A stretch of 64,000 nt of DNA from the NCBI RefSeq assembly GCF_009498035.1, contig NZ_CP034550.1:7316001-7380000 (forward strand), written 5' to 3'. Below are positions 19,948 to 62,683 of the stretch, piece by piece (within the stretch, counting starts at the first letter, position 1; each line of letters begins with the position of its first letter). The notes under the pieces are model-generated. The model was not told the DNA's origin. It did not search any database and saw only the letters and a list, made by a program, of their open reading frames with translations. The stretch comes from Saccharothrix syringae. GTDB lineage: Bacteria > Actinomycetota > Actinomycetes > Mycobacteriales > Pseudonocardiaceae. Made by a program: the position numbers and the translations under genes.

Positions 19948-21030
19948 ATGGCAGGCGAGGGGAACCTCCCGGACGTGTGGTCGGTGTCCGACGTGGAGCG
20001 GTTGGCCGCCGCGCGCCTGGCACCGCAGGTGCGGGACTACATCGCGGGCGGCAGCGGTGAGGAGGTCACCGTGGCCGCCAACCGGGCCGCGCTCGACCGG
20101 GTGGCCGTGGTGCCGCGCGCGTTGGTGGACGTCTCGGCCTGCGACACCGGGTGCGAGCTGTTCGGCGCGCGGTCGTCGTTGCCGGTCGCGGTGGCGCCGA
20201 TGGCCTACCAGAAGCTGATCCACCCCGGCGGTGAACGGGCCGCGGCGAGGGCGGCCGGGTCGGCCGGCGTCCCCTACGTCATCAGCACCCTCAGCTCCGA
20301 ACCGATCGACGCGGTGGCCGGCGCGGCCGGCGCGACGTGGTTCCAGCTGTACTGGCTGCGGGACCGCCGCACGGTCGTCGACCTGCTGCGCCGCGCCGAG
20401 GACGCGGGCTGCCGGGCCGTCGTGCTCACCGTGGACGTGCCCCTGCTCGGCCGGCGGCTGCGCGACCTGCGCAACGGCTTCGCCCTGCCCCCGGGCATCC
20501 GACCGGTCAACGTCGACGGCGACGTCGGCGAGCACGTGCCGGGCGACTCGGTGCTGGCCCGGCACACCGCGGCCGTGTTCGACCCGTCGCTGAGCTGGCG
20601 CGACCTGGACTGGCTGCGGGAGCACACCTCGCTCCCCGTCGTCCTCAAGGGCGTCCTCGACGCCGAGGACGCCGACCAGGCCGTCGACCGCGGCGTGGAC
20701 GGCATCGTCGTCTCCAACCACGGTGGCCGGCAGCTCGACGGCGCCGTTCCCGCCGTCACCGCCCTGCCCGAGGTCGTGGCCGCGGTCGACGGCCGGTGCC
20801 CGGTGCTGCTGGACAGCGGCGTGCGCACCGGCGCGGACGTGCTGCGCGCCCTCGCCCTCGGCGCCACGGCCGTGCTGGTCGGCAGGCCCGTGCTGTGGGG
20901 GCTGGGCGCGGGCGGCGAGCGGGGCGTGGCAACGGTGCTGGACCTGCTCCGCGAGGAGCTGGAAACCGCGCTGCGCCTGGCCGGCTGCCCCGACCTCGCC
21001 TCGGCGCGCCGCCTCAGGACCAGGGGTTGA
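19948..21030 (+). CDS. hmo: 4-Hydroxymandelate oxidase
   Basis: 360 residues, FMN-dependent alpha-hydroxyacid oxidase. It oxidises 4-hydroxymandelate to 4-hydroxyphenylglyoxylate, the second step of 4-hydroxyphenylglycine synthesis. Family residues are visible: V-A-P-M-A-Y-Q-K-L for FMN, W-F-Q-L-Y-W-L-R-D, V-V-L-K-G-V with the FMN Lys, S-N-H-G-G-R-Q-L-D-G with the catalytic His and substrate Arg, and L-D-S-G-V-R-T-G. The segments R-R-L-R-D-L-R-N-G-F-A-L-P and Q-L-D-G-A-V-P agree with what I recall of glycopeptide Hmo proteins. The other two pathway genes, hmaS and hpgT, are in this window on the opposite strand, which supports the assignment. Its 3' end overlaps the convergent hydrolase gene by 17 bp. 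Confidence 0.88.
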   Translation: MAGEGNLPDVWSVSDVERLAAARLAPQVRDYIAGGSGEEVTVAANRAALDRVAVVPRALVDVSACDTGCELFGARSSLPVAVAPMAYQKLIHPGGERAAARAAGSAGVPYVISTLSSEPIDAVAGAAGATWFQLYWLRDRRTVVDLLRRAEDAGCRAVVLTVDVPLLGRRLRDLRNGFALPPGIRPVNVDGDVGEHVPGDSVLARHTAAVFDPSLSWRDLDWLREHTSLPVVLKGVLDAEDADQAVDRGVDGIVVSNHGGRQLDGAVPAVTALPEVVAAVDGRCPVLLDSGVRTGADVLRALALGATAVLVGRPVLWGLGAGGERGVATVLDLLREELETALRLAGCPDLASARRLRTRG

Positions 21031-21958
21031 ACCAGGACCTCAGGTAGTCGGCCGCCTCGCGCTGCGCCCGGTGGGCCGCGTCGAGCGCGCCGGTCATGGC
21101 GAAGAAGCCGTGCACCATGCCCGGGTAGCGGGACGCGACCACGGGCACGCCGGCCTCGCGCAGGCGTTCGGCGTACTGCTCGCCCTCGTCCCGCAGCGGG
21201 TCGTGCTCGGCGGTGATCACGAGCGCCGGCGGCAGCCCGCTCAGATCCTCGGCCAGCAGCGGTGACACCAGGGGGTTGCGACCGTCCTCCGGGTCGGCCA
21301 GGTAGTGGGCCCAGTACCAGGCCACCGACCGGTTGTTGAACAGCGCCGGGTCGTCATTGGCGCGCATCGACCCGGTCTCGCCCCGGTAGTCGGTGTTGGG
21401 GTAGACCAGCACCTGGGCGACGAGCGCCGGCCCGCCGCGCTCGCGGGCCAGCAGGGTGACCGCGGCGGCCAGGTTGCCGCCCGCGCTGTCACCGGCGATC
21501 GCGAGCCGGCCGGGGTCGACGCCCAGCTCCGCGGCGTTCGCCGCGATCCAGGACACCGCCGCGTAGCAGTCGTGGACGGCGGCCGGGAACCGGTGCTCGG
21601 GCGCCAGGCGGTAGCCGACGGTGATCACCTGGCACGGCACGGCGTTGGCCAGCGCGCGGCAGATGCCGTCGGAGGTGTCGACGCTGCCCAGCGCCCAGCC
21701 GCCGCCGAAGAGGTAGACCAGGGTGGGCAGCGGGTCGGTGCCGTCGGTGGGGCGGTAGACGCGGACCGGCAGGTCGCCGTCCGGGCCGGGGACGTGGCGG
21801 TCGGTGACGTGGCGCACCGGCTCGCCCGTGCCGGCCGCGGCCCGGACGGCCGCGAGGTCGGCGGCCCGCGCCTCCTCCACGGACAGCGTGTAGAGCGGCG
21901 GCGTGCCTGCGGCGATCACGCGCTCGCGCATCGCGCGCACCTGGGGGTCGAGCGGCAT
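21014..21958 (-). CDS. Alpha/beta hydrolase of the HSL esterase family
   Basis: 314 residues. The nucleophile elbow G-D-S-A-G-G-N and the acid/base region (A-E-H-D-P-L-R-D and H-G-F-F-A-M) are the usual hormone-sensitive-lipase triad. The oxyanion motif reads Y-L-F-G-G-G-W: the common H-G-G-G has Phe in place of His. ATG 21958 is preferred because GGAGG stands 5 bases upstream; ATG 21970 is possible but has a poorer site. It is the last gene of the long leftward operon, 14 bp after the E1 beta stop. It could hydrolyse an ester or thioester intermediate, or remove an acyl group from the final product. The true substrate is unknown. Confidence 0.85.
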   Translation of the reverse strand: MPLDPQVRAMRERVIAAGTPPLYTLSVEEARAADLAAVRAAAGTGEPVRHVTDRHVPGPDGDLPVRVYRPTDGTDPLPTLVYLFGGGWALGSVDTSDGICRALANAVPCQVITVGYRLAPEHRFPAAVHDCYAAVSWIAANAAELGVDPGRLAIAGDSAGGNLAAAVTLLARERGGPALVAQVLVYPNTDYRGETGSMRANDDPALFNNRSVAWYWAHYLADPEDGRNPLVSPLLAEDLSGLPPALVITAEHDPLRDEGEQYAERLREAGVPVVASRYPGMVHGFFAMTGALDAAHRAQREAADYLRSWFNPWS

Positions 21959-21972
21959 GTCCGCCTCCATAG

Positions 21973-22941
21973 TCAGTGCCTCAACACCTTCTGCACCGCG
22001 GTCGCCAGCTGGAGGCGGTCGGGTTGCACGGCCCGGTCGAGCGCCGGGGCGAACGGGACCACCGCGCCGTCCGGCCTGGTCACCCTGGCCGGCGGGGCGA
22101 GCAGGGTGAACCGCTCGGCCGCGGTGGCCAGCACCTCGGCGCCGATGCCGCACGTGCGGTTCGAGTCGTCCACCACGACCAGGCGACCGGTCTTCGCCAC
22201 CGAGGCGGCCAGGCCCTCCCAGTCGAACGGGTACACCGTGCGCGGGTCGAACACCTCGACCGAGACGTCGTCGGCCAGCTCGTCGGCGACCGCGAGCGCG
22301 TCGTGCACCAGGTGCCCGACCGCCACCACCGTGACGTCCTCCCCCGCCCGGTGCACCCGGCCGACGCCGAGCGGCACCGGGCCGAGTTCGGCGTGGTCGA
22401 CGTCGACGCGCACGCCGAGCGCCGCCGCCGGCGCGAACACCACCACCGGGTCGTCGTCCCGGATCGCGGTGACCAGCAGGCCGTAGGCGTCCGCGGGCGT
22501 GGCCGGCACCGCGGTCTTGACCCCGGCGTGGGCGAACAGGCTGTACGGGTGGTCCGAGTGCTGCCCGGCCCAGCCGGTCCGCGAGCCCGAGCCGGTCACC
22601 AGGTAGGTCACCGGCACGCGGGCCTGGCCGCCGGTCATCAGGGAGAACTTGTGCGCCTGGTTGACGATCTGCTCGAACACCAGGAACAGCAGCGACGGGA
22701 CCTGGAACTCGACCACCGGCCGCAGGCCGGCCAGCGCGGCGCCGGTGGCGAAGCCGGTGAACGCCTGCTCCGACAGCGGCGCGTCCAGCACCCGGTCGGG
22801 CCCGAACCGGCCGACCAGGCCCGCGGTCACGTGCGACACGGCCACCCGGACGTCCTCGCCGAGCACGAACACCGCCGGGTCGCGGGCCAGCTCGTCGCCC
22901 AGCGCCCGGTTGAGCGCCTTCTGGTAGGACAGCCACGGCAT
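21973..22941 (-). CDS. Pyruvate dehydrogenase-like E1 beta subunit
   Basis: 322 residues, the transketolase-type beta subunit of a 2-oxoacid dehydrogenase E1. It begins with L-S-Y-Q-K-A-L-N-R-A-L and has V-F-V-L-G-E-D-V near 27-34, D-A-P-L-S-E-Q-A-F-T-G-F-A-T-G (cofactor and subunit contact) and the C-terminal D-P-R-T-V-Y-P-F-D. It works with the alpha subunit directly upstream (TGATG one-base overlap) to decarboxylate a 2-oxo acid, or cleave a ketose, with thiamine diphosphate. No E2 or E3 gene lies nearby, unlike housekeeping complexes. Similar bipartite E1 pairs are known in pristinamycin phenylglycine synthesis (PglB/PglC) and in C2-unit loading onto ACPs in quinocarcin-type clusters (QncN/QncL). 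Confidence 0.9.
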   Translation of the reverse strand: MPWLSYQKALNRALGDELARDPAVFVLGEDVRVAVSHVTAGLVGRFGPDRVLDAPLSEQAFTGFATGAALAGLRPVVEFQVPSLLFLVFEQIVNQAHKFSLMTGGQARVPVTYLVTGSGSRTGWAGQHSDHPYSLFAHAGVKTAVPATPADAYGLLVTAIRDDDPVVVFAPAAALGVRVDVDHAELGPVPLGVGRVHRAGEDVTVVAVGHLVHDALAVADELADDVSVEVFDPRTVYPFDWEGLAASVAKTGRLVVVDDSNRTCGIGAEVLATAAERFTLLAPPARVTRPDGAVVPFAPALDRAVQPDRLQLATAVQKVLRH

Positions 22942-23927
22942 CAGCAACCACTCCCCGGCCGGGGGCGGGTCCCGTCGGCGTACAGGTGCTCCAGGGCGTC
23001 GGCCGGGTCCGGGTGCGGGCTGCCCAACGCGAAAGCCACCGCGGCATCCAATGTGGACTCGATTTCGGCGTCGACCAGGGTGCGGTCCGCACCGGTCAAC
23101 CGGGAACCCTGGATCTCCACCGGGTCCCGCGACCGTCCACTGCGGACCTCCTCGTCGTCGCGGTAGCGGACCCGGGCCCGGTGCTCCCAGGTGTGGTGCG
23201 CGTCGAACCGGTAGGTCAGGCACTCCAGCAGCGACGGCCCGCCGCCGGCGCGGGCGCGGTCCACCGCGGTCCGCGCCGCCCCCAGCACGGCCACCGGGTC
23301 CATCCCGTCCACCGTCACCGACGGCACGCCGAACGCCTCGCCCCGACCGGGGATCGTGCCGGCCACCGCGTCGGCGACGGGCAGGGTCGTGGCGTACCCG
23401 TTGTTCTCGCAGACGAACAGCACCGGCAGCCGCCACAGCGCGGCGAGGTTCAGCGACTCCAGCAGCACGCCCTGGTTGACCGCGCCGTCGCCGAAGAAGC
23501 TCACCGCCACCCGGTCGGCGCCCGCCCGCTTGGCCGCCCACGCCGCGCCGACGGTGATCGGCGCGTTCGCCCCGACGATCGCGTTCGCGCCGAGGATGCC
23601 CAGCCGGAAGTCCGCGGCGTGCATCGACCCGCCGCGGCCCCGGTTCAGCCCGGTGGCGCGACCGGCCAGCTCCGCGAGCACCCGGGCCGGGTCGGCGCCC
23701 TTGGCGAGCACGTGCCCGTGCCCGCGGTGGGTGCTGGTGATCACGTCGTCGGCGCGCAGCGCGGCGCACACCCCGGCGGCGACGGCCTCCTGCCCGGTGC
23801 AGGGGTGGATGCCGCCGACGATGTCGCCGGTGCGCACCAGCTCGACCGCCCGCTCCTCGAACCGGCGGATCAGCCGCACCACCCGGTAGAGGCCGACGTG
23901 GCCGTCCGGCCCGTGGGTGCCCGCCAT
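22941..23927 (-). CDS. Pyruvate dehydrogenase-like E1 alpha subunit
   Basis: 328 residues, the thiamine-binding alpha subunit of a 2-oxoacid dehydrogenase E1. Visible marks are the T-G-Q-E-A-V region near 46-51, the S-T-H-R-G-H-G-H active-site loop, R-G-R-G-G-S-M-H, and the thiamine diphosphate motif F-G-D-G-A-V-N-Q-G ending in C-E-N-N-G-Y. ATG 23927 follows the PhyH gene by 20 bp. Neighbours are hmaS, an ACP and AMP ligases. Two roles fit: decarboxylation of hydroxyphenylglyoxylate or hydroxyphenylpyruvate with acyl transfer to CoA or an ACP, or delivery of a glycolyl unit from a ketose phosphate. Sequence alone cannot choose between them. Confidence 0.9.
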   Translation of the reverse strand: MAGTHGPDGHVGLYRVVRLIRRFEERAVELVRTGDIVGGIHPCTGQEAVAAGVCAALRADDVITSTHRGHGHVLAKGADPARVLAELAGRATGLNRGRGGSMHAADFRLGILGANAIVGANAPITVGAAWAAKRAGADRVAVSFFGDGAVNQGVLLESLNLAALWRLPVLFVCENNGYATTLPVADAVAGTIPGRGEAFGVPSVTVDGMDPVAVLGAARTAVDRARAGGGPSLLECLTYRFDAHHTWEHRARVRYRDDEEVRSGRSRDPVEIQGSRLTGADRTLVDAEIESTLDAAVAFALGSPHPDPADALEHLYADGTRPRPGSGC

Positions 23928-23947
23928 GCGCCGCGTCCCGCCGGCCG

Positions 23948-24856
23948 TCAGGAGCGCCACAGGGTGGGGCAGAACTCCGGGTCGGCGTAGTCCGGCCTGC
24001 CGTCCGGGGTGCGGCGCACCAGGGAGTCGTGGTTGTAGAAGGCCAGGCTGCCGTCGGACAGCGGGAACTCGCGGTAGGCGTTGTCGCCGTCCTGGAGGTG
24101 CAGGGAGATGGCCTGGCGCGGCCGGTCCGCGCGGTTGGGCCCGCTGCCGTGGTAGGTGCGGCAGTGGTGGAAGCTCATGTGCCCCTTCGGGATGACCATG
24201 GGCACCCTGGTGACCTCGGCGCCGTTGTGCGCGGCGTTGGCGGCCAGCAGGTCGTCGAGGTGCCCGGGTTCGCGGTCGGCGAAGTGCCGGGTGGTGCTGT
24301 CGTCGCCGCCGACCTCCTCCCACCGGTGGCTGCCGTCGACCATGGTGATGGTGCCCAGCCGCTCGTCGCAGTCGTGGAACGGGATGAACGCGGTGAGCAT
24401 CCGCTCCGAGGACGACGACGACCAGTAGTGCTTGTCGAAGTGCCAGGGCACCACGTTGGACGGTTCGTCGGCCACCGGCGGCTTGAGGATCAGGGTCGAC
24501 TGGAACACCCGGATCTCCGCGGCCCGCGCCAACCGCGCGGCCACCGCGCCGATCAGCGGCTTGAGCAGCACCTTGGCGATCGCGTCGCTCTCGTAGTGCA
24601 CGTAGTCGTTGTGGCGCTGCACCTCGCCGTGGGACGGCTCCCAGTAGGCCAGCCGCGGCGGGCGCGCCGGCAGCAGGCGGCTGCGCTCGCCCTCGTAGTA
24701 CCGCTCGGCCGCCGCGGTCAGCTCGTCGACCTCGTCGTCGGAGAGCAGCTTCCCGGACAGGTACCAGCCGTGCTCGGCGAAGAACCGCACGTCGTCGTCG
24801 GTCGGCAGCAGGGCCCGCTCCTGCTCGGTCAGCGTGAACCGGTTCACCCTGGTCAC
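23948..24856 (-). CDS. Phytanoyl-CoA dioxygenase family (PhyH) oxygenase
   Basis: 302 residues, Fe(II)/2-oxoglutarate oxygenase. The facial triad is visible as H139-x-D141 in P-W-H-F-D-K-H and distal H236 in R-T-Y-H-G-S-G-P-N, with R247 suited to hold 2-oxoglutarate. The region before the triad (P-P-V-A-D-E-P-S-N) and the Y-W-S-S-S-S-S-E patch probably line the substrate pocket. ATG 24856 overlaps the hmaS stop by four bases. In clusters this family hydroxylates aliphatic or amino-acid carbons, sometimes on carrier-bound substrates. Its place between hmaS and E1 suggests oxidation of an arylglycine- or arylacyl-type intermediate, which is inference. Confidence 0.87.
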   Translation of the reverse strand: MTRVNRFTLTEQERALLPTDDDVRFFAEHGWYLSGKLLSDDEVDELTAAAERYYEGERSRLLPARPPRLAYWEPSHGEVQRHNDYVHYESDAIAKVLLKPLIGAVAARLARAAEIRVFQSTLILKPPVADEPSNVVPWHFDKHYWSSSSSERMLTAFIPFHDCDERLGTITMVDGSHRWEEVGGDDSTTRHFADREPGHLDDLLAANAAHNGAEVTRVPMVIPKGHMSFHHCRTYHGSGPNRADRPRQAISLHLQDGDNAYREFPLSDGSLAFYNHDSLVRRTPDGRPDYADPEFCPTLWRS

Positions 24857-25938
24857 TTCCCCTTCCCCACGGCCGCCCGGTCCGCCAGCTCGCCGCGCTT
24901 GGCCTCGTACAACGCCTTGATGTTCCCGCTGCCGAAGGTCAGCGCGCCCCGCCGCTCGATGATCTCCAGGAAGAGCGTGCGGCGGACGTGCATGGACTCG
25001 GTGAAGATCTGGAGCAGCTGCCCCCAGTGGTCCCGGTCGACCAGCACGCCGAGCCGGCGCAGCTCGTCCACCGGCGCGTCCAGGTGCCCGACCCGCTCCT
25101 CCAGGGAGTCGTAGTAGCCCGCCGGCGTGCCGAGGAACCGGACGCCGTGGTCGGCCAGCGTGGTGACCGCCTTGACGATGTCGTCGGTGCCGAACGCGAC
25201 GTGCTGCACGCCGGCGCCGGCGTGCCAGGTCAGGAAGTTGTCGATCTGGCCCGGCTGGCGCTCGGGGTCCGGTTCGATCAGGGTGAAGGTGACGTGCCCC
25301 GACGGGCTCTGCACCACCTTGGAGTCCATGCCCTGGCCGCCGACCTCCACGTACTCCTCGAAGATCTGCTCGAACCCGAACACGTCCACGTAGTACCGGG
25401 CGGTCGGGGCGAGACCGCCCGCGGGCACGCAGATCGCGATGTGGTCGATGGTGCGCAGCAGTTTGCCGTCGCCGTGCGGGTCGGGCTCGGTGACCTCGAT
25501 CGCGCCGGGCAGGAACTCGCGCCCCGGGCCGTGCCGCTCCACCAGCCGGTGCGTCACGTCGGAGAAGCCGGAGACCTCGGCGACCACGACCCGCTGGTCG
25601 TCGTCGCCGAATTGGGCGGGCGGCGCCACGGCCTCGGCGCCGCGCCCGACCAGGGTGCGGTAGGCGGCCGCGGCGTCGTCCACGCCGATGCCGATCACCG
25701 CCACGCCGTCGCCGTGCCTGCGCACGTACTCGGTCGCGGGGTGGTCGGCGACCAGCCCGGAGGTCAGCACGACCTGGATGCCGCCCTGCCGCAGCAGCAG
25801 GGAGCGGCGGCCGGGCAGGCCGGTCTCGGGGCCGCCCTGCCCGCAGACCTTGAAGCCGAACGCGGTGCAGAGGTAGAACGCCGTCTGCCGCGCGTCGCCG
25901 ACGTACAGTTCGATGTGGTCGATGCCGGAGATGTCCAT
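24853..25938 (-). CDS. hmaS: 4-Hydroxymandelate synthase
   Basis: 361 residues, two glyoxalase/vicinal-oxygen-chelate halves. It converts 4-hydroxyphenylpyruvate, O2 and Fe(II) to 4-hydroxymandelate. The iron triad is H166 (I-D-H-I-A-I-C), H246 (V-Q-H-V-A-F) and E325 (L-F-L-E-I-I-E-R). The segment K-V-V-Q-S-P-S-G-H-V-T-F-T-L-I-E-P-D agrees, as I recall it, with glycopeptide HmaS rather than with catabolic hydroxyphenylpyruvate dioxygenase, which makes homogentisate by a related reaction. Co-occurrence of hmo and hpgT in the same window, with no homogentisate-pathway gene, supports HmaS. ATG 25938 overlaps the stop of the upstream ACP by one base. Confidence 0.87.
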   Translation of the reverse strand: MDISGIDHIELYVGDARQTAFYLCTAFGFKVCGQGGPETGLPGRRSLLLRQGGIQVVLTSGLVADHPATEYVRRHGDGVAVIGIGVDDAAAAYRTLVGRGAEAVAPPAQFGDDDQRVVVAEVSGFSDVTHRLVERHGPGREFLPGAIEVTEPDPHGDGKLLRTIDHIAICVPAGGLAPTARYYVDVFGFEQIFEEYVEVGGQGMDSKVVQSPSGHVTFTLIEPDPERQPGQIDNFLTWHAGAGVQHVAFGTDDIVKAVTTLADHGVRFLGTPAGYYDSLEERVGHLDAPVDELRRLGVLVDRDHWGQLLQIFTESMHVRRTLFLEIIERRGALTFGSGNIKALYEAKRGELADRAAVGKGK

Positions 25939-26213
25939 CAGGTCGTCCCGATCGCTTCCCGCAGCACGTCGGCGGCCCCGGACACGGTGGTCATCCGGCC
26001 GTACTGGTCCTCGTCCAGTTCCACGCGCACGCCGTAGCGCTGCTCGACCTGGTGCACGAGCCAGGCCAGCTCCATCGACTCGATCCGCTCGGGCACGTCG
26101 TCCGCCGACCTGCCGTCCAGGCCGGCCAGGATGGCCACGATGTCGTCCCGACCGGGCGTCCCGCCCTGGCCCATACCGCCACCCCGTTCCTCTTCGGCGG
26201 GTTCCGCCCTCAT
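25938..26213 (-). CDS. Free-standing acyl carrier protein
   Basis: 91 residues if started at ATG 26213; an internal ATG at 26174 would give 78 residues. The carrier helix is I-E-S-M-E-L-A-W-L-V, where the Ser of E-S-M is the expected phosphopantetheine site (usual motif D-S-L/M). The C-terminal helix follows after E-L-D-E-D-Q-Y. The first 20 residues are charged and look disordered (E-E-E-R-G-G-G). It lies 7 bp after the AMP ligase and overlaps hmaS by one base, so ligase and carrier are probably a loading pair. The acyl group could be aryl or aliphatic. The E1 subunits downstream could also deliver to it. Confidence 0.82.
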   Translation of the reverse strand: MRAEPAEEERGGGMGQGGTPGRDDIVAILAGLDGRSADDVPERIESMELAWLVHQVEQRYGVRVELDEDQYGRMTTVSGAADVLREAIGTT

Positions 26214-26220
26214 CGCGAGA

Positions 26221-27627
26221 TCACTTCCCCTCCCGCGCGGCCCGGCGCAGCACCGTGGGGTCGCGGACGAGCTTCCCGGTGGTGGTGCGGGGCATCGCGG
26301 GCAGCACGTGCAGCCGGCGCGGTCGCTTGTAGGCGGCCAGCCGCTCGGTCAGGCCGGCCTCGACGGTCGCCGCGGTGGCGGGCTCGGCCAGCTCCGCGTA
26401 CGCGGTGACCACCTCGTCGTGCAGCACGACCGCGGCCACCACGCCCGGCAGGCCGCCCAGCGTGGCCTCGACCTCCGTCAGGTCGACCTTCAGGCCGCCG
26501 ACCGAGATCTGGGAGTCCAGCCGCCCCTTGACGGTGACCAGCCCGGTGCTCGGGTCGACCGCGCCCGCGTCCCGGGTGTGCAGCCAGCCGTCGGCCCACC
26601 GGGTCGGGTCGGCCAGGCCGACGTAGGGCGACTCGGGCCGGCTCACCAGCAGCTCGCCACCGCGCTCGACGACCTCCAGGCCGGGCGCTGGGGTGAGCGC
26701 GGGCCGGTGCTCGCCGAACAGGTCGGTGGCGATCACGCCGACCTCGGTCATGCCCCACATGTTCCCCAGCGGCACGCGGTACTTCCCGGTGAACGCGGCC
26801 GCGGTCGCGGCGGGCACCAGCTCGCCGCCGGTGGTCATCCGCTTGAGCTGCGGCAGCGCGGGCGGGTCCACGACGGACGCGAGCAGGCCGATGTGGAACG
26901 GCACGCCCAGCACGGTCGCCGGGGTGGCCTCGGCCGCCACCGCCTCCAGCACGCTGTCCCCGGTGAGCCGTTCCGGCGGCCGGACCTGCACGCCGGCGTG
27001 CAGCCCGTACAGCAGGGCGCCGACGAGCCCGAGCACGTGCACCATCGAGGCCAGCACGACGATCCGCTCACCGGGCAGCGGCACGCCGTCGATCCGGGTG
27101 TACCGGTCGATCTCGGCGACCAGGTCGGCGGCGGTGCGACCGATCACCTTGGACGGTCCGGTCGAGCCGGAGCTGAGCTGGATCACCGCGTGCGGCGTCG
27201 CCGCCGGGCGACCCGGGTGCGGCGCAACGGTTTCCTCGACCTCGGCGAAGGCCCGCAGGGGGTTGCTGCGGACCCGTCCGGGCGCGACCACCACCTGCGG
27301 TGCCAGCCGCTCCAGCGCGAGGTCGACCTCGTACGGGGTGAGGCGGTGGTCGAGCAGGACCACCTGGGCGCCCGCGCGCCACCCGGCGAGCAGGTTCGCC
27401 ACGTACGCCAGGGAGGGCGGCAGCCGCAGCGCCAGGGAGCCGCCGGGGCGCAGGCCCGCGGCGGTCAACCGCTCCTGCCGCTCGGCCACCATCGACCGCA
27501 ACGCGCGCCGGTCGACCGGTCCGCCGGCGTGCAGGCACACGTCCCCGTCCGCACCGCGGAGCAGGACCTCGTCCACCCATTCCGGACCCGCGACCGCTCC
27601 GCCGGTCGCCGCCAGGCCAGTGGTCAT
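26221..27627 (-). CDS. Stand-alone adenylate-forming enzyme (acyl/aryl ligase)
   Basis: 468 residues, ANL superfamily. The ATP loop is intact (L-S-S-G-S-T-G-P-S-K-V), the A5-like motif is M-W-G-M-T-E-V, the D-A-G and K-G-R-L-D-S-Q hinge are present, and the catalytic C-terminal Lys is in T-T-T-G-K-L-V. It activates a carboxylate as acyl-AMP and probably loads the ACP encoded 7 bp downstream. ATG 27627 is chosen because GGGAG is well placed; an upstream extension to 27735 reads through the intergenic gap and has no homology. An 85-bp gap separates it from hpgT, the only break in the operon. The substrate cannot be predicted reliably from sequence by eye. Confidence 0.85.
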   Translation of the reverse strand: MTTGLAATGGAVAGPEWVDEVLLRGADGDVCLHAGGPVDRRALRSMVAERQERLTAAGLRPGGSLALRLPPSLAYVANLLAGWRAGAQVVLLDHRLTPYEVDLALERLAPQVVVAPGRVRSNPLRAFAEVEETVAPHPGRPAATPHAVIQLSSGSTGPSKVIGRTAADLVAEIDRYTRIDGVPLPGERIVVLASMVHVLGLVGALLYGLHAGVQVRPPERLTGDSVLEAVAAEATPATVLGVPFHIGLLASVVDPPALPQLKRMTTGGELVPAATAAAFTGKYRVPLGNMWGMTEVGVIATDLFGEHRPALTPAPGLEVVERGGELLVSRPESPYVGLADPTRWADGWLHTRDAGAVDPSTGLVTVKGRLDSQISVGGLKVDLTEVEATLGGLPGVVAAVVLHDEVVTAYAELAEPATAATVEAGLTERLAAYKRPRRLHVLPAMPRTTTGKLVRDPTVLRRAAREGK

Positions 27628-27712
27628 CAGCACTCCCGCCCGGTTCCGCGCCTGGAGAAATACGGTTGCCGAGCCGATACCCGCCAACGAATTGAGCGGA
27701 TCGAAGCGTACG

Positions 27713-55701: not shown

Positions 55702-55734
55702 GGCGCACGCTCCACTTCGCCGGCGAGTCCACGA

Positions 55735-55830: not shown

Positions 55831-57285
55831 ATGTGCCCCATGGCGCCGGCGACGCTCGACCTCGTGACCCACTCGGGCGCACCGCCGCGCTCGCCCGCCC
55901 TCCACCTGCCCGGCGCCGGGGAGATGACCTACGCGGAACTGGCCGGGCTCGTCGACGAGGTGGCGCGGTCGCTGCGCCACGACAACAAGGCGCTGGTGCT
56001 GTGCGCCGGGGACCGCGACCTGCCCACGCTCCTGGCCTACCTGGCGGCGCTGCGCCTCGGCCACGCGGTCGCGTTCCTGCCCGCGTCCGCGGAGGTCCTC
56101 GCCGCGTACCGACCGGAGTTCGTCGTCCCGGCCCCCGGCGCCGGGCCGGACCCGACCGGGTCCGGCTACCGACTCATAGGCGAATCACCATGCGGTACAA
56201 AGATCTTCCGACGCCACAGCGGCCATCCGGCCGATGACGTCGATGAGCAGACGGCCCTGCTGCTGGCCACCTCCGGCACCACGGGCAGCCCCAAGGCGGT
56301 GCGGCTGTCGTACGCCGGGGTGGCCGACAACGCCGACGCCGTGATCGAGGTCCTGGGCATCACCGCGGCCGAACGCGCGCCGACCACCCTGCCCATCACC
56401 CACGCCTACGGGCTGTCGGTGCTCAACACCCACCTGCGCGCGGGCGCGACCGTCGTGCTGGACGACCGGTCCCCGCTGGCGCTGGCCACCTGGGACCGCC
56501 TCGCCCGCACGGGCGCCACCTCGTTCGCCGCCGTGCCGACGACCTACGCGGCGTTCGGCCCAGCGCACGTGAACCTGTTGGGCCGCACGGCGATCCGCAC
56601 CATGACGCAGTCGGGCGCCCGCCTGGGCGACGAACTGACCATGCGGTTGGTGCGGATGATGGAGCAGCGCGGTGGCCGGTTCTTCCCGATGTACGGCCAG
56701 ACCGAGGCGACCTCCCGGATCGCCTGCCTGCACCCCGCGGACCTGCCGGACCGCCTCGGCTCGGTCGGGCCGGCCGTGCCGGGCGGCACCATCACGATCG
56801 GGCCCGCGCCGGCGCACCACCGGGCCGTGCCCGGGGAGGGCGCGGTCCTCTACCGCGGCCCCGGTGTCATGCTCGGCTACGCGACCTGCCGCGCGGACCT
56901 GGCCCGAGGCGCCGAAGTGGACGTCCTGGACACCGGCGACCTCGGCTACCTGCGCGACGGCTACCTGTACCTGACCGGCCGCACCAAGCGGATCGTCAAG
57001 GTGCTCGGCGTCCGCACGAGCCTGGACGACCTGGAGCGCGTGGTCGAGCACCCGGACCACCCGGCCGCGGTGGTGTGCGGCGCGGACGACGTGGTGCACC
57101 TGGTCGGCGCGGGCGACCCGGCCGTGCACGAGCGGCAGCGCGGGCTGCTGGCCGAGGCGCTGGGCGTGCCGGTCCGGCACGTGCTCTTCCGCCCGGTGGA
57201 CCACCTGCCCCGCACCCCCGGCGGGAAGGTCGACTACCGGGCCCTGGCCGGAATCGTGGACGACCGGGAGGTCCGGTGGAGCTGA
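55831..57285 (+). CDS. Stand-alone adenylate-forming enzyme (A-domain type)
   Basis: 484 residues, ANL superfamily with all main motifs: L-L-A-T-S-G-T-T-G-S-P-K-A-V, Y-G-Q-T-E-A-T-S-R, L-D-T-G-D-L-G-Y, G-R-T-K-R-I-V-K-V-L-G-V-R, and T-P-G-G-K-V-D-Y with the catalytic Lys. It is short for an NRPS A domain but complete. ATG 55831 has AGGA upstream; ATG 55840 is possible. It heads a rightward six-gene operon (A, TE, partial A-PCP, A, PCP-TE, C) and overlaps the next gene by 10 bp. It probably loads one of the two PCPs of this operon. The substrate is not predictable by eye. Confidence 0.88.
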   Translation: MCPMAPATLDLVTHSGAPPRSPALHLPGAGEMTYAELAGLVDEVARSLRHDNKALVLCAGDRDLPTLLAYLAALRLGHAVAFLPASAEVLAAYRPEFVVPAPGAGPDPTGSGYRLIGESPCGTKIFRRHSGHPADDVDEQTALLLATSGTTGSPKAVRLSYAGVADNADAVIEVLGITAAERAPTTLPITHAYGLSVLNTHLRAGATVVLDDRSPLALATWDRLARTGATSFAAVPTTYAAFGPAHVNLLGRTAIRTMTQSGARLGDELTMRLVRMMEQRGGRFFPMYGQTEATSRIACLHPADLPDRLGSVGPAVPGGTITIGPAPAHHRAVPGEGAVLYRGPGVMLGYATCRADLARGAEVDVLDTGDLGYLRDGYLYLTGRTKRIVKVLGVRTSLDDLERVVEHPDHPAAVVCGADDVVHLVGAGDPAVHERQRGLLAEALGVPVRHVLFRPVDHLPRTPGGKVDYRALAGIVDDREVRWS

Positions 57286-58052
57286 CGAGCTGGCGGTGCC
57301 TGGCCGACCGGGGCACCGACCTGGTGCTGTGCCTGGACTTCCCGGGCGGCCGCGCCGCGGCGGGCTTCGCGGAGCTGGCGGCCGGCGTACCGGTGGGCGC
57401 GTGCTTCCTCCACATCGGCCGGACGGGTCCGGGCCCGCTGGAGGAGGCCGTCGACCGCTGGGTGGCCGAGGCGCTGGGCACCGGCCGCCCGGTGCGCGCG
57501 GTGCTGGGGTACTGCGCGGGCACGGCGCTCGCGACCCGGGTGGCCGACGCGGTCGCCGAGGCGGCGGCGCCACCGGTGGTCCTGCTGTTCGACGCGGTGG
57601 CCACGACCTCCGGTTCGCTGGCCCACCAGTTCACCACCGCGCTGGAGACCTCGGCCGCGCACCTGACCGCCGACGAGCTGGACGACGCCCGCCGGCTGGC
57701 CGACGAACTGGTCGAGGCGCACCCGGACGACCCGGCGCCCGTCGCCGCCGGCCTGACCGGGCGCTACGACCGGTTGATGGGCGCGGTGGCCGCCCGGCTG
57801 TCCTTGAACGACTTCTTCCGGCAGGAGCTGACCTGCGGGTTCACCGACTACGCGGACTACCTGCTGCTGGCTGCGCAAGGCGGGTTCGCCACGCGCGCCG
57901 GCGAGCCGCTGTTCCTGTCCTCGAAGGACCACGAGCCCCCGGTGGCGGGCGCGCGGGACCTCGCGCTGGCCGTCGAGCACACCGACCTGCTGCGCGATGC
58001 CGAAGTGCACGCGCTCGTCGCCGAACTGCTGAGAGGAGAGCGCCCGTGGTGA
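57276..58052 (+). CDS. Thioesterase-like hydrolase with Cys nucleophile
   Basis: 258 residues, alpha/beta hydrolase resembling NRPS/PKS thioesterases. The nucleophile elbow is V-L-G-Y-C80-A-G-T-A, so Cys replaces Ser; a C-terminal His lies in S-K-D-H-E-P-P and an Asp near L-L-F-D-A-V. Cys thioesterases of this type often form amide or macrocyclic products or move chains between carriers. GTG 57276 overlaps the ligase by 10 bp, and its stop overlaps the next start. There is no signal peptide. It may transfer an acyl group from one carrier to the next in this dissociated assembly line rather than hydrolyse it. Confidence 0.75.
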   Translation: MELTSWRCLADRGTDLVLCLDFPGGRAAAGFAELAAGVPVGACFLHIGRTGPGPLEEAVDRWVAEALGTGRPVRAVLGYCAGTALATRVADAVAEAAAPPVVLLFDAVATTSGSLAHQFTTALETSAAHLTADELDDARRLADELVEAHPDDPAPVAAGLTGRYDRLMGAVAARLSLNDFFRQELTCGFTDYADYLLLAAQGGFATRAGEPLFLSSKDHEPPVAGARDLALAVEHTDLLRDAEVHALVAELLRGERPW

Positions 58053-58555
58053 CACCGGCGGAGATAGCCGAGGTGCTGGCGGCCCACCCCGGGGTGGGCC
58101 GGGCCGAGGTCGCCGTCGTGCGCCACGACGGGCGCGACGTCACCGTCGCGGTGGTCGAGCCGACCGAGTACCTGAGCGGGCCGCTGCTGCGCAACCACGC
58201 GCGGCGGGAGCTGGGCGACGACGGCGCGCCGGCCGGGGTGCTGATCGTCGACCGCATCCCGACGGCGGGCGGCGCGGTCGACGCCGACGCGGTGGCCGCG
58301 GCCGTCGCGGACGGCCGGTGCACCCTGTTCGAGGACCCGCGCGACGACGTGGAGCGCCGGGTGGCGGAGATCTGGGCGGCGCAGATGGACGTGCGGTCCG
58401 TCGGCGCGAACGACGACTTCCTGGAGCTGGGCGGCGACTCGCTGTCGGCGCTGGGCATCATCGCCGCCATCGAGGCGGAGTTCGACCGGTCGCTGGACGT
58501 GTACGAGTTCATGAGCGCGGCCAGCGTGCGGCGCCTGGCCGAGATCCTGCGGTAG
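58046..58555 (+). CDS. A-domain C-terminal subdomain fused to PCP
   Basis: 169 residues. About 1-90 resemble the small C-terminal subdomain of adenylation domains: E-V-L-A-A-H-P-G-V-G-R-A-E-V, then G-V-L-I-V-D-R-I-P-T-A-G-G-A-V-D. The position of the catalytic Lys (G-K-x-D) is Ala/Val, so it cannot catalyse adenylation. About 95-169 are a PCP with D-F-L-E-L-G-G-D-S-L. GTG 58046 has GAGAGGAG upstream (GTG 58049 also possible). It has no large A subdomain. The remnant may dock this PCP to the stand-alone ligases upstream or downstream. It lies 2 bp from the next ligase. Confidence 0.78.
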   Translation: MVTPAEIAEVLAAHPGVGRAEVAVVRHDGRDVTVAVVEPTEYLSGPLLRNHARRELGDDGAPAGVLIVDRIPTAGGAVDADAVAAAVADGRCTLFEDPRDDVERRVAEIWAAQMDVRSVGANDDFLELGGDSLSALGIIAAIEAEFDRSLDVYEFMSAASVRRLAEILR

Positions 58556-58557
58556 CC

Positions 58558-60012
58558 GTGGCGCTGCCCGTGCACCGGCGGATCGACGAGGTCGCCCGCG
58601 CCGAACCCGACCGGACGGCCCTGGTCGGCTTCGACGCGGACCTGGTCGAGCACACCGTGTCCTGGCGCGAACTCGCCTCCCGCGTGGCGGACGCGGCGGG
58701 CGCGCTGCGCGTGGTGGGCGCGGGTTCGTGCGTCGTCGTGGAGGCGGCCAACACCGTGGCCGCGGCGACGGGCATCGCGGCGGCGCTCGCGGCCGAGGTC
58801 CCGGTCTTCCCGCTCAACCCGGCCACCCCGCCGGCCGAGCGGGACCTCCTGCTGGGCCTGCTGGGTCGGCGCTTCGACCGCGTCCACCTGCTGGACGAGC
58901 GGCACCGGCCGCGACCGGTGGACGTGCCCGGCGGCCCCGCGCGCCCGGGTGGCCCGGTGGCGTACCTGTTGGCCACCGGCGCGAGCACGGGCGTGCCGAA
59001 GATCTCGGCCCGGCCCGGCCCGCTGCGCTACGACCCGGCGCGCACGCCGTCGCTGGTGATCCGGCAGACCGGCTGGCGGACGGGCCAGCGGCAGCTCGTC
59101 GTCGGCCCGCTGTACCACGCCGCGCCGTTCACCGCGTTCGTGGACGCCCTACTCGACGTCAACACCGTTGTCCTGCAACCGTTCTTCTCCCCCGCGTGGA
59201 CGGTGGAGCTGATCGCCGGGCACGGCGTCGAGTGGGTGCAGCTCACCCCGACGCACATGCGCGAGATCCTGGCCGCGAACCCCGCGCCCGGGAGCTTCGA
59301 CAGCCTGCGCGGGATGCTGCACACCGCCGCGCGCTGCGACCCGGCCACCAAGCGCGGGTGGCTCGACCTGCTCGGCCCGCACCGGGTCTTCGAGCTGTAC
59401 GGCGCGACCGAGGGCATCGGCGTGACGCTGGTCCGCGGCGACGAGTGGCTGGCCCGCCCCGGCACGGTCGGGCGCGGTTTCCTGACCCAGATCAGGATTC
59501 TGGACGACGACGGCGCGCCGGTCCCGCCGGGCACCACCGGCACCGTGTTCATGCGGACCCCGCAGCGGGTCGGCCGCTCCGACTACCTCGACGGCCTGGT
59601 GGTGCGCACCACCCCGGACGGGTTCGCCACGGTGGGCGACCGCGGCCGGCTCGACCCCGACGGCTACCTCCACCTGCAACCCCGCGACCACGGCACCATC
59701 AACGTGGGCGGGGAGAAGGTCGACCCGGACGAGGTGGAGGCGGCGCTGCTGGCCCACCCGGCGGTGGCCGACGCGGTGGCCCTGGCCGTGCCGCACCGGA
59801 CGCTCGGGTCGGTGGTCGGCGCGCACGTGGTGCTGCGCCCCGACGCGACCGTCCGCCGCGCCGAGCTGGCCGCGCACTGCGGGCGGCGGCTGGCCGGCTA
59901 CAAGATCCCCAAGCACTTCACGTTCGTCGACCAGGTGCCCCGGTCGGCGGCCGGGAAGGTGCAGCGCTGGCGTCTGGCTCCCAACCCCGAGGACGGTGCG
60001 ACCCCGCGATGA
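58558..60012 (+). CDS. Stand-alone adenylate-forming enzyme (acyl-CoA synthetase type)
   Basis: 484 residues. The ATP loop reads L-L-A-T-G-A-S-T-G-V-P-K, a variant of T-S-G-T-T-G-x-P-K that keeps Pro-Lys. Y-G-A-T-E-G is A5, V-G-D-R-G-R-L stands for the T-G-D motif, N-V-G-G-E-K-V-D-P-D-E-V is FadD/CoA-ligase-like, and S-A-A-G-K-V-Q-R-W has the catalytic Lys. GTG 58558 is 2 bp after the previous stop, and the TGA overlaps the PCP-TE start. It probably activates a carboxylic acid for the PCP on either side. The sequence is more like acyl or aryl ligases than amino-acid A domains. Confidence 0.85.
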   Translation: MALPVHRRIDEVARAEPDRTALVGFDADLVEHTVSWRELASRVADAAGALRVVGAGSCVVVEAANTVAAATGIAAALAAEVPVFPLNPATPPAERDLLLGLLGRRFDRVHLLDERHRPRPVDVPGGPARPGGPVAYLLATGASTGVPKISARPGPLRYDPARTPSLVIRQTGWRTGQRQLVVGPLYHAAPFTAFVDALLDVNTVVLQPFFSPAWTVELIAGHGVEWVQLTPTHMREILAANPAPGSFDSLRGMLHTAARCDPATKRGWLDLLGPHRVFELYGATEGIGVTLVRGDEWLARPGTVGRGFLTQIRILDDDGAPVPPGTTGTVFMRTPQRVGRSDYLDGLVVRTTPDGFATVGDRGRLDPDGYLHLQPRDHGTINVGGEKVDPDEVEAALLAHPAVADAVALAVPHRTLGSVVGAHVVLRPDATVRRAELAAHCGRRLAGYKIPKHFTFVDQVPRSAAGKVQRWRLAPNPEDGATPR

Positions 60013-60926
60013 ACCCGACCGTCGACCTGACCGACACCGGCTACTCCCGCCCGAGGGACCCGGTGGAGCTGTGGCTGGCCCGGCAGTGGCAGGAGGTGCT
60101 GGGCTTCGGCGTCGGCATCCGGGAGAACTTCTTCGGCGTGGGCGGCAACTCCCTCGACGCCGCCCGGGTGATCAACGCGGTGCTGGAGGAGTTCGGCGTC
60201 CAGCTCCCGCTGAACGTGCTGACCGAGCACCCGACCGTGGCGGGCCTGGCCGGTCGCCTGCGCGCGCAGAACGAGCGGCTGACCGGTCCGCTCGTCCCGG
60301 TCCAGCGCGGCGACGGCACCCGGCCACCGCTGTTCCTGGTCCACCCGGCCGACGGGCGGGTCGGCGCGTACTGCCCGCTGGCCCAGGAACTGGGCGAGGA
60401 GCACACCGTCTACGCCCTCCAGGCGGTCGGCCTGTACGACGAGGAAGACCCCCTGCCCGCGCTGCCCGCGATGGCACGGGCCTACCTCGACGCGATCCGC
60501 GCGGAGCACCCCACCGGCCCCTACCTCCTCGGCGGCTGCGCGGCCGGCGCGGCGATCGCCCACGAGATGGCCGCCCGGCTCGTCGAGGAGGGCGCCGAGG
60601 TGCCGCTGCTGGCGGTGATCGACGCGGACCTGGTCGAGCCGGTCGGCCTGTGGGCGGAGGAGCCGCGGGAGTTGGACCTGCCCGGCACCCTGGCCGACTG
60701 GAAGGCGCGCGACCTGGTGCCGGAGGACGCGACACCCGGGTTCGTGGCGCGCTCGCTGCGGGTGTGGCGGGCCAACCGGGACGGCGTGCGCAGTTGGCGA
60801 CCGCGGCCCTACCCCGGTGCCGTGGACGTCTTCGGCGCCGTGCGGACCGAGGACTGGCCCGCGGGCGAACGACGGCTCCACGACGGCGACCGCTGGGTCG
60901 ACGCGCTGCGGGAGCTGGTCCGGTGA
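60009..60926 (+). CDS. PCP-thioesterase didomain with altered nucleophile
   Basis: 305 residues. PCP about 15-88 with F-F-G-V-G-G-N-S48-L. TE about 105-305 with P-L-F-L-V-H-P-A-D-G (oxyanion region), the elbow L-L-G-G-C177-A178-A-G, acid in V-I-D-A-D and a C-terminal His in R-R-L-H-D-G-D. Aligned with G-x-S-x-G or G-x-C-x-G thioesterases, the nucleophile position is Ala178 and a Cys sits one place earlier. The TE may therefore be inactive or use a shifted Cys. ATG 60009 and the stop both overlap neighbours by four bases. It could be a carrier platform whose release step is done by another thioesterase. Confidence 0.82.
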   Translation: MNPTVDLTDTGYSRPRDPVELWLARQWQEVLGFGVGIRENFFGVGGNSLDAARVINAVLEEFGVQLPLNVLTEHPTVAGLAGRLRAQNERLTGPLVPVQRGDGTRPPLFLVHPADGRVGAYCPLAQELGEEHTVYALQAVGLYDEEDPLPALPAMARAYLDAIRAEHPTGPYLLGGCAAGAAIAHEMAARLVEEGAEVPLLAVIDADLVEPVGLWAEEPRELDLPGTLADWKARDLVPEDATPGFVARSLRVWRANRDGVRSWRPRPYPGAVDVFGAVRTEDWPAGERRLHDGDRWVDALRELVR

Positions 60927-62683
60927 GCACCGGCACCGGTCCGCACCGCAGGCGGCGGGTGCAGCTGACCCCGCTGCCGCCGGTCCCGGTCGCGTTCACC
61001 GGGCGGCGCCAGGGCGAGGGACCGCTCACCCTCGGCCAGCTCAACATCTTCCGGTGGCTGGACCGGACCCCCGACCACTTCTACGCCGTGCTGGCCGTCC
61101 CGCTGCCGGTGCCCGACGGCGCGTCCGTCGACGACGTGGCCGCGGCGGTCGCCGTGCTGGTGGCCCGGCACGAGGCCCTGCGCACCAGCTACTCGGGCGG
61201 TGAGCGCCCGCGCCAGCGCGTCGCGGCGTCCGGCGTGCTCGCGCTGGAGGTGTTCTCCCTCGGCGCGGGCCGGTGGGGGCCGCGCGACGGCACCGCGGTG
61301 GCCGACGCGCTGGTCCGGGTGCTGCGCGAACCGCCGCCCGGCCCGCGGCGGCCCGAGGTGCGGGTGGCCGTGGCCACCGCGCCCGACGAGGGCGACCGGG
61401 TCGTCGCCTGCGCCGCCGGGTTCTCGCACCTGGCGGTGGACCACGGTGCGATCGAGGTCGTCCGGCGCGAGTTCGCCGAGCTGGTCGGCAACCCCTCGCT
61501 GCGGCAGGTGGGAGAGCCCCGCCACCACCCGCTGGACCAGGCGGAGCTGGAGGCCCGGTCCGTCGAGCGGCGACGTGCCGAGGCGTCGTTGGACTACGTG
61601 CTGGAGCAGTCGTGGCGGATACCGCGGGTCCTCTACGCCCTGCCGGGCGGGCGGGCCAGCGGCGAGTCGCTGGCGGTGGAGCTGTCGTCCGTGGCCGCCG
61701 CCATGGCGGTGCGGCGGGTGGCGGCCCGCACCAGGGCCAGCCGGTCCAGCATCGTCCTGGCCGCCGTCTGCGCCGTGCTCGCCCACCGCACCGGGTACCG
61801 CGAACTGGTGCTGCCCCTGCTGTCGGGCAACCGCTTCGAGCGCCACCTGGTGAACTACGTCGGTTCCCTGGCGCAGGGCTGCATCGCCACCGTCGAGGTC
61901 GGCGAGGGCAGCTTCGACGCGCTCGTCAAGCACACCTGGACCGCCGTGCTGGAGGCCAGCAGGCACGCCCGCTACGACGCGGCCCGGCGGGCGGCCGAGG
62001 ACGCGGTGATCGAGCGCGAACGGGGCCTGCGGTTCAACTACGACCCGCTGTTCAACAGCCTCGTCCCCGAGTCCTGGTCCGGTGTCACCGCGGGCGTCGG
62101 CTTCCGGCCCGAGGAGGTCGAGGCCGCGCTGGGGCGGACCGAGCTGCGCTGGCGCCCGGTGCACCGCAACGGCACCCCGGTCCGCTTCGGCCTCAACCAG
62201 GTCGACGGCCGACTGGTGCTGGACCTGTGGAGCTCCGACACCGGCCTGGTGCCCCGGGCCGACATGGAGGCGTTGCTGACCGCGGTCGAACGCCTGCTGG
62301 TGGCCGCCTCCCGGGCCGACCTGGACGCCGGTCGCGTCCGGGAGGCCATCGCGCTGGAGCCGATCGCCCGTCCCCCGGACTGGGTCCTGGTCGACTCCTG
62401 CTGGGTCGACCCCGCCGAGGTGCGGCGGTTGCTGGACCAGGCGCTGGCGCCCGCGGTGACCCGGCTCTTCCCGTCCCTGGGCGGCCGGCCCCTGGTCGCC
62501 CACCTGACGGCGACCGACGCGGTCCGCACCCCGGAGGAGGCCCACGCCCGCTGCATGGACGCCCTGGCCGACCACCACACGGCCCTCACGCCCCGGCACT
62601 ACGTGATCTGCCGGACGGCCCCGGACGACCCCGACGACCCGCGCGCCTGGACCCCCCTCGTCAGCGGCAGCGGCAGGAGCTGA
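60923..62683 (+). CDS. Stand-alone condensation domain with A-subdomain-like tail
   Basis: 586 residues. About 30-440 are a condensation domain: L-T-L-G-Q-L-N-I-F-R-W-L-D start, active loop F-S-H169-L-A-V-D173-H with the catalytic His and Asp kept. About 450-586 are extra: S-C-W-V-D-P-A-E-V-R-R-L-L, R-P-L-V-A-H-L-T-A-T-D, L-T-P-R-H-Y-V-I-C, then P-D-D-P-R-A-W. This resembles the C-terminal subdomain of adenylation domains, again without the catalytic Lys; that reading is tentative. GTG 60923 overlaps the PCP-TE stop. It ends the operon and probably forms an amide or ester between two carrier-bound units. Confidence 0.8.
   Translation: MSTGTGPHRRRRVQLTPLPPVPVAFTGRRQGEGPLTLGQLNIFRWLDRTPDHFYAVLAVPLPVPDGASVDDVAAAVAVLVARHEALRTSYSGGERPRQRVAASGVLALEVFSLGAGRWGPRDGTAVADALVRVLREPPPGPRRPEVRVAVATAPDEGDRVVACAAGFSHLAVDHGAIEVVRREFAELVGNPSLRQVGEPRHHPLDQAELEARSVERRRAEASLDYVLEQSWRIPRVLYALPGGRASGESLAVELSSVAAAMAVRRVAARTRASRSSIVLAAVCAVLAHRTGYRELVLPLLSGNRFERHLVNYVGSLAQGCIATVEVGEGSFDALVKHTWTAVLEASRHARYDAARRAAEDAVIERERGLRFNYDPLFNSLVPESWSGVTAGVGFRPEEVEAALGRTELRWRPVHRNGTPVRFGLNQVDGRLVLDLWSSDTGLVPRADMEALLTAVERLLVAASRADLDAGRVREAIALEPIARPPDWVLVDSCWVDPAEVRRLLDQALAPAVTRLFPSLGGRPLVAHLTATDAVRTPEEAHARCMDALADHHTALTPRHYVICRTAPDDPDDPRAWTPLVSGSGRS

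Follow-up and report, generated by a model that had tools for sequence, protein, structure and literature searches.

A conserved 38-gene cluster of Saccharothrix syringae that combines an arylglycine route, a carrier-protein assembly line with a probable Dieckmann cyclase, and a meroterpenoid-type block

The 64-kb window considered here (the whole stretch of DNA analyzed, positions 7,316,001–7,380,000 of the 10.93-Mb single-contig genome of Saccharothrix syringae) holds a cluster of 38 genes, designated g17 to g54, which by codon-usage gene calling fills positions 19948–62683 exactly (~43 kb). Comparison of sequences indicates that this cluster is a real, conserved, and modular hybrid unit. 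We propose, at a probability of about 0.5, that its product is a glycosylated, ring-closed, arylglycine-derived meroditerpenoid, the parts of which would belong to one covalent molecule. Gene content, gene order, conservation, co-occurrence, and catalytic residues were observed; from these we infer each substrate, the covalent link, and the action of modules 1 and 2 (arylglycine supply and the assembly line) and module 3 (the terpenoid block) on a single molecule.

Results

The order of all 38 genes is shared by Labedaea rhizosphaerae (identity 55–87%) and by the Saccharothrix metagenome-assembled genome (MAG) RH59 (51–88%). Among the window genes outside g17–g54, only g05 (through an ABC paralog) and a 17% stretch of g13 find matches in Labedaea, and only g05 does so in MAG RH59. 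Because the order of g17–g54 is kept in both relatives and the outside neighbors do not follow it, positions 19948–62683 are taken to be the true borders, in agreement with the extent given to the cluster in an initial annotation of this DNA. That annotation had allowed that the terpenoid block and the 4-hydroxyphenylglycine (Hpg) block might occur separately and be joined here by chance; the blocks do occur apart in other genomes, but their joint arrangement is conserved, and the 38-gene order shared with Labedaea and the MAG rules out a chance junction.

The genes, with domain content taken from Pfam and NCBIfam scans, are as follows (C, condensation; A, adenylation; PCP and ACP, peptidyl and acyl carrier proteins; TE, thioesterase; KAS, ketoacyl-ACP synthase; PDH, pyruvate dehydrogenase; HPPD, 4-hydroxyphenylpyruvate dioxygenase; GGPP, geranylgeranyl diphosphate).

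19948..21030, +, g17: Hmo, 4-hydroxymandelate oxidase-like FMN enzyme, left border (Pfam FMN_dh; best PDB match 5zzp, a 4-hydroxymandelate oxidase, 404 bits)
21014..21970, −, g18: alpha/beta hydrolase (Abhydrolase_3), esterase (Pfam); also accompanies the Micromonospora tulbaghiae Hpg block
21973..22941, −, g19: PDH-type E1 beta (Pfam Transket_pyr/Transketolase_C)
22941..23960, −, g20: PDH-type E1 alpha (Pfam E1_dh; best PDB match PDH E1 alpha, 200 bits)
23948..24856, −, g21: PhyH-type dioxygenase (Pfam)
24853..25938, −, g22: HmaS, 4-hydroxymandelate synthase (best PDB match 2r5v, 324 bits; HPPDs ≤290 bits)
25938..26174, −, g23: small ACP-like protein (no Pfam match; carrier-type serine, (E/G)SMEL, in 11/11 copies)
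26221..27633, −, g24: stand-alone ligase of acyl/aryl type in the Hpg block (PDB matches weak, the best being oxalyl-CoA synthetase at 55 bits and 4-chlorobenzoyl-CoA ligase at 54 bits)
27713..29077, −, g25: HpgT-like aminotransferase (59 and 62% identity to the aminotransferases that adjoin hmaS at two other Saccharothrix loci)
29094..32015, −, g26: C-A-PCP with degenerate A domain (domain scan; A-motif comparison)
32019..33665, −, g27: AMP ligase akin to diazotase AvaA6, P-loop lysine replaced (NF058622, 407 bits, under the 975 cut-off)
33662..34426, −, g28: ABC-2 exporter permease (domain scan)
34440..35492, −, g29: exporter ATPase, DrrA type (domain scan)
35575..36459, −, g30: stand-alone TE with Ser nucleophile, GWSxG (domain scan, motif)
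36540..37682, −, g31: glycosyltransferase (Pfam/NCBIfam)
37722..38669, +, g32: KAS III-like, Cys and His kept, His in place of the FabH Asn (domain scan, residue comparison)
38745..38981, +, g33: ACP (domain scan)
38988..39773, +, g34: protein without known family, conserved in 16 copies (alignment)
39805..40923, +, g35: DegT aminotransferase of the terpenoid block, not seen in Micromonospora loci (domain scan)
40960..41967, −, g36: HisC-type aminotransferase (Pfam/NCBIfam)
41974..43251, −, g37: UbiH-type FAD mono-oxygenase, proposed epoxidase (Pfam/NCBIfam)
43251..44951, −, g38: squalene-hopene-type cyclase lacking DxDD, with Glu329 and Glu332 at the site (domain scan, alignment)
44948..45967, −, g39: UbiA prenyltransferase (both Asp motifs in 8/8 copies)
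45964..46980, −, g40: polyprenyl synthase, presumably GGPP-type from its inferred chain length (Pfam/NCBIfam)
47090..48058, −, g41: O-methyltransferase (domain scan)
48196..49074, +, g42: TauD-type dioxygenase (domain scan)
49068..50234, −, g43: cytochrome P450 (domain scan)
50362..51468, +, g44: EryCIII-type glycosyltransferase (Pfam/NCBIfam)
51681..52784, +, g45: cytochrome P450 (domain scan)
52813..54216, −, g46: stand-alone C-like protein (HxxxDG in 15/15 copies)
54209..55426, −, g47: KAS II, Cys-His-His (domain scan, residues)
55441..55701, −, g48: ACP (domain scan, serine kept)
55831..57285, +, g49: stand-alone acyl-type ligase (domain scan, motifs)
57276..58052, +, g50: probable NcmC/TrdC-type Dieckmann cyclase (PDB profile search; Cys80-Asp106-His235)
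58046..58555, +, g51: AMP-binding C-terminal remnant and PCP (domain scan)
58558..60012, +, g52: stand-alone acyl ligase (Pfam/NCBIfam)
60009..60926, +, g53: PCP-TE, Cys at the nucleophile elbow (domain scan; Cys in 7/9 copies)
60959..62683, +, g54: stand-alone C-like protein, right border (domain scan, motif)

Nearly every item in the gene list of the initial annotation was recovered: hmaS, hmo, and hpgT, four stand-alone AMP ligases (g24, g27, g49, and g52), three small stand-alone carriers (g23, g33, and g48) with the serine kept in every compared copy, two stand-alone C-like proteins (g46 and g54), a KAS II (g47) and a KAS III-like protein (g32), the polyprenyl synthase-UbiA-cyclase-FAD operon (g40–g37), two P450s (g43 and g45), two glycosyltransferases (g31 and g44), and an ABC-2 exporter pair (g28 and g29). 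Its description of the assembly line as fully dissociated was wrong, as g26 is a C-A-PCP protein, g51 joins an A-domain remnant to a PCP, and g53 is a PCP-TE. Absent from it were the g50 Dieckmann cyclase, the g20/g19 E1 pair, g21 (PhyH), g42 (TauD), the g41 O-methyltransferase, the g35 and g36 aminotransferases, the g18 esterase, the g30 TE, and g34. The last of these has no match in Pfam or NCBIfam; 716 of 8000 scored candidates from genomes and metagenomes are relatives at E ≤ 0.001, and the names borne by some of them, such as 2-hydroxy-acid oxidase, 4-hydroxymandelate oxidase, and predicted chalcone synthase, conflict. No RNA elements or tRNAs were found in this stretch. Just beyond the cluster, positions 8224–12537 carry GNAT, MFS, Asp/Arg hydroxylase, and GNAT genes; S. 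saharensis has a 48% relative of this hydroxylase close to its core locus.

The genes for HmaS, Hmo, and the HpgT-like enzyme, the last named by its identity to neighbors of hmaS, lie together, and one of the two loci with which g25 was compared is inside a large canonical nonribosomal peptide synthetase (NRPS) locus with its own Hmo-like gene. The g19/g20 E1 pair, g21, g24, g23, and g18 accompany this block, also in M. tulbaghiae. An arylglycine route in the cluster, as the initial annotation had it, is supported by these assignments. Elsewhere in the same genome (contig C1, 6975001–7015000) there is a second hmaS/HpgT-like pair, 47% identical to g22 and 59% to g25, which adjoins polyketide synthase (PKS), ACP-sized, ligase-like, and NRPS genes. 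The Hpg block of M. tulbaghiae (contig C11) lies beside two KS-like genes, and paralogs of g27, g47, and g48 are carried there.

The A domain of g26 has lost motifs A3 and A10 in the copies from the window, Labedaea, MAG RH59, and S. deserti, the A4 motif is altered in the last three, and in five further loci the domain is missing from a protein of 550–563 residues; the copy of genome G232 was left out of this comparison. An FDxS pattern was not present in g24, g27, or g49, in a run that also missed two of four canonical control domains; g52, which lay outside that run, reads LYHAAPF at the corresponding place. The four stand-alone ligases look to be of acyl/aryl type. The P-loop lysine of g27 is gone in every core or terpenoid-locus copy compared and is present in the paralog at the M. 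tulbaghiae Hpg locus.

In Pfam and NCBIfam, g50 finds nothing but a sub-threshold TPR match. When a 10-member profile of g50 was compared with the PDB, NcmC (6e6t) was matched with an E value of 6.9e-26, the next unrelated chain having an E value of 0.16. The putative triad, Cys80, Asp106, and His235, is present in 10/10 copies, and the Cys aligns with the NcmC cysteine. The protein is, from this clear match, predicted to be a Dieckmann cyclase of the NcmC/TrdC type, which points to a ring of the tetramate or pyridone type. Labedaea and MAG RH59 have lost the elbow cysteine of the g53 TE and keep g50 intact, which fits Dieckmann release. The product had been described in the initial annotation as an aryl/peptidyl meroterpenoid; the "peptidyl" part is doubtful because the only A domain of amino acid type is degenerate and the ligases look to be of acyl or aryl type, and a Dieckmann cyclase is predicted, whereas the meroterpenoid part stands with the arylglycine route.

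The polyprenyl synthase, a UbiA protein, an FAD oxygenase, and a cyclase are encoded in one operon (g40–g37), which, together with the intact aspartate motifs of UbiA, supports its reading as a meroterpenoid-type block. The canonical class II DxDD motif is absent from g38, the aligned site reading xxLE(S/T)(A/G)E in 31/31 sequences, with Glu329 and Glu332 at that site in all of them. The placement rests on a HMMER alignment of 49 bits; a second, weaker, and ambiguous segment (13 bits) places WYRDHTSGTA at the site, also without DxDD. Distant relatives of the cyclase (about 45–53%) in other Pseudonocardiaceae have as neighbors either UbiA, polyprenyl synthase, and FAD genes or genes for a HisC-type aminotransferase and a P450.

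A close cyclase (≥78%) is found in 5 and a close HmaS (≥83%) in 11 of 25 Saccharothrix genomes. All five cyclase carriers have HmaS, compared with 6/20 of the remainder (Fisher p = 0.009), and in three (G000, G255, and G256) the two genes lie ~19 kb apart on one contig. Duplicate genomes were counted once (G253 = G259, G256 = G260, and G030 = G257), the status of G255 comes from gene positions alone (both on C207, 19 kb apart), and three Saccharothrix with 46% relatives of the cyclase (G021, G059, and G240) were left out of the carriers of the close block; two of those three have no HmaS above 37%. Among 160 Micromonospora genomes, drawn as the genus to which M. tulbaghiae belongs, 19 have the cyclase (64–78%) and 98 have HmaS (E ≤ 1e-95); all 19 carriers have HmaS, compared with 79/141 of the remainder (Fisher p = 4e-5). 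The close cyclase was therefore never seen without HmaS in these 25 Saccharothrix and 160 Micromonospora genomes, although the Fisher tests used are blind to phylogeny, ignoring kinship, and overstate independence.

Discussion

The gene assignments suggest a pathway in three modules. In module 1 (g17–g25), which would provide a 4-hydroxyphenyl building block, HmaS and Hmo would convert 4-hydroxyphenylpyruvate to 4-hydroxyphenylglyoxylate, the HpgT-like g25 would aminate it, and the E1 pair and PhyH may modify the 4-hydroxyphenyl unit or a second precursor. Module 2 (g26–g27, g30–g34, and g46–g54) would be a partly dissociated carrier-protein line, in which the ligases load acyl or aryl acids onto carriers in trans, KAS III and KAS II extend the loaded acids, the C-like proteins join the pieces on g26, g51, and g53, and g50 closes the chain, on its release, into a ring of tetramate or pyridone type. 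In module 3 (g35–g45 with the exporter g28–g29), UbiA would attach a C20 chain, which the FAD enzyme would epoxidize and g38 would cyclize with a glutamate in place of DxDD, the other enzymes of the module decorating the cyclized chain.

Several observations weigh against a single product, and some of them speak for the alternative that one locus makes two independent products. In that case the core would yield a compound of the arylglycine-tetramate type, and g35–g45 a diterpenoid of their own that shares only carrier enzymes and the exporter with it. The core occurs without the terpenoid block in seven Saccharothrix loci, the terpenoid block stands at a locus apart in S. luteola, S. texasensis, and Micromonospora, and g50 is unmatched (E ≤ 1e-12) in 15/19 cyclase-bearing Micromonospora, with a close match in only two; the terpenoid block would therefore need no Dieckmann step in those 15. 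HmaS is in any case common in Micromonospora (79/141 genomes without the cyclase). In the 12/19 carriers there that have it on one contig with the cyclase, the two are unlinked, at distances of 153 kb to 1.23 Mb, and in 7/19 they are on different contigs; M. humi has the terpenoid block without adjacent g27–g34. Moreover, no ligase with a clear amino acid-type A4 motif was found among those of the cluster, so that Hpg is only a possible amino acid constituent of the product. Against two separate products, the full interleaving of the blocks is kept in Labedaea and MAG RH59, the close cyclase is without exception accompanied by HmaS in the genomes surveyed, and core genes from both flanks stay with the terpenoid block in Micromonospora, where g27, g31, g32, g34, and g46 lie beside the cyclase in 6/7 loci read and the M. 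tulbaghiae terpenoid locus also keeps g47–g48. We regard two products as a serious alternative, but on balance an improbable one.

In the cyclase-bearing Micromonospora genome G416 (contig C22), g49–g54 (63–73%) and relatives of g30 and g31 form a separate stand-alone NRPS/Dieckmann locus. Because of this arrangement and of the absence of a g50 match from most cyclase-bearing Micromonospora, g49–g54 is judged to be a module that is mobile in its own right, and the terpenoid block would not depend on a Dieckmann ring everywhere.

The distribution of core-only, joined, and split forms was examined with trees of four shared core genes and of eight Hpg-block genes, both rooted on Micromonospora. 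In both, the core-only loci group together within the joined loci (split support 1.000), in trees with a long outgroup branch and some weak inner nodes (0.61 and 0.77); the NRPS tree was midpoint-rooted. A relic of g28 (75 residues, 48%, 63.5 bits) lies at the exporter site of S. deserti, and none above noise was found in the other six core-only loci. The nested position and the S. deserti relic suggest that the core-only form arose by loss of the terpenoid block, and recent insertion of the block into a core-only cluster is not favored. Split forms occur in S. luteola and S. texasensis, where the core, complete or nearly so, occupies one locus and the terpenoid genes another, the latter being closest to the MAG RH59 block; g17 was not found in the retrieved stretches of the S. 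saharensis and S. texasensis cores, and that of G215 ends inside g51. At the S. texasensis terpenoid locus, g30, g32, g34, g47, g48, and g49 survive as short relics, with an intact core elsewhere, and g29 and g35–g46 of this locus are open with dN/dS of 0.13–0.58 (two comparisons), g28 being incomplete. Such a pattern would be expected after the decay of core copies that had become redundant, the terpenoid genes remaining useful and perhaps being supplied in trans by the core elsewhere.

A further alternative to the proposed arylglycine-derived product is entry of an aryl acid, with the E1 pair decarboxylating 4-hydroxyphenylglyoxylate to a 4-hydroxybenzoyl starter, g24 loading it onto g23, the KAS proteins extending it, and UbiA prenylating the aryl ketide. 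The best matches of g24 are aryl- and acyl-CoA ligases, no active amino acid A domain was seen, and in M. tulbaghiae g24, g23, the E1 pair, PhyH, HmaS, Hmo, and the aminotransferase occur together with KAS II and AMP-ligase paralogs and no g50. However, the HpgT-like aminotransferase is kept in all loci read that hold the Hpg block, and no lipoyl E2 gene was seen in scans of g17–g54, so that we consider this route unlikely. An N–N (diazo-type) product made through g27 is very improbable, for despite the 407-bit match of g27 to the AvaA6-related family NF058622, the score is far from the 975-bit cut-off, and general scans of g17–g54, to which the search for CreD/CreE was confined within the genome, revealed no nitrite-forming gene of that type.

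If the two halves do make one molecule, arylglycine, Dieckmann-ring, and meroditerpenoid chemistry would be joined, and the core-only, joined, and split forms would provide a natural comparison for the gain, loss, and relocation of a terpenoid module. More tentatively, and with some doubt, a new product class may be envisaged, an Hpg-derived tetramate (or related Dieckmann ring) built on a largely dissociated NRPS/fatty acid synthase line, then prenylated with a C20 chain, epoxidized, and cyclized by a glutamate-using cyclase without DxDD, with the halves at separate loci in S. luteola and S. texasensis working in trans. No product joining these features was found in listings of the open-licence literature, which is not proof that none has been published. 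Whatever the final product, the cyclase, conserved in its lack of DxDD, and the C-PCP proteins loaded in trans offer testable enzymology.

The Hpg cassette of glycopeptide-type NRPS clusters has the same three enzyme types, HmaS, Hmo, and HpgT, and the HmaS structure 2r5v is annotated as PCZA361.1, a glycopeptide-cluster protein. The present cassette differs in having no large multimodular NRPS beside it and in the extra E1 pair, PhyH protein, ligase, and ACP that travel with it here and in M. tulbaghiae. At the level of enzyme types, the phenalinolactone-type meroditerpenoid route resembles the terpenoid block in its single operon for a polyprenyl synthase, a UbiA protein, an FAD oxygenase, and a squalene-hopene-type cyclase, and reportedly, from the titles of two 2024 papers cited in PMC13307353, proceeds in the order prenylation, epoxidation, and cyclization; the block in S. 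syringae differs in being joined to HmaS/Hmo/HpgT and a Dieckmann cyclase.

The zigralone (zig) cluster of Micromonospora zingiberis is likewise a meroditerpenoid cluster with a polyprenyl synthase, UbiA, P450s, an aminotransferase, and a thiamine diphosphate enzyme, but its cyclase is a Pyr4-like transmembrane protein, its chemistry is that of quinolones derived from tryptophan, and neither HmaS nor a Dieckmann cyclase is named in excerpts of its description (PMC13307353). Excerpts of a second paper (PMC10956176) describe NcmC/TrdC-type enzymes as Cys-Asp-His off-loading cyclases for tetramates, known from nocamycin, tirandamycin, and bripiodionen, with which g50 agrees in its match to NcmC and its triad. 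There, the bpd cluster for the tetramate bripiodionen pairs a Dieckmann cyclase with a C-A-T protein whose A domain is naturally silent and which is loaded in trans, a close parallel to g50 and g26. In the systems named in that account, release is from a modular PKS-NRPS, whereas the present cluster has no type I PKS gene and consists mostly of stand-alone proteins. As a whole, the cluster brings together modules of known kinds in a combination that is new.

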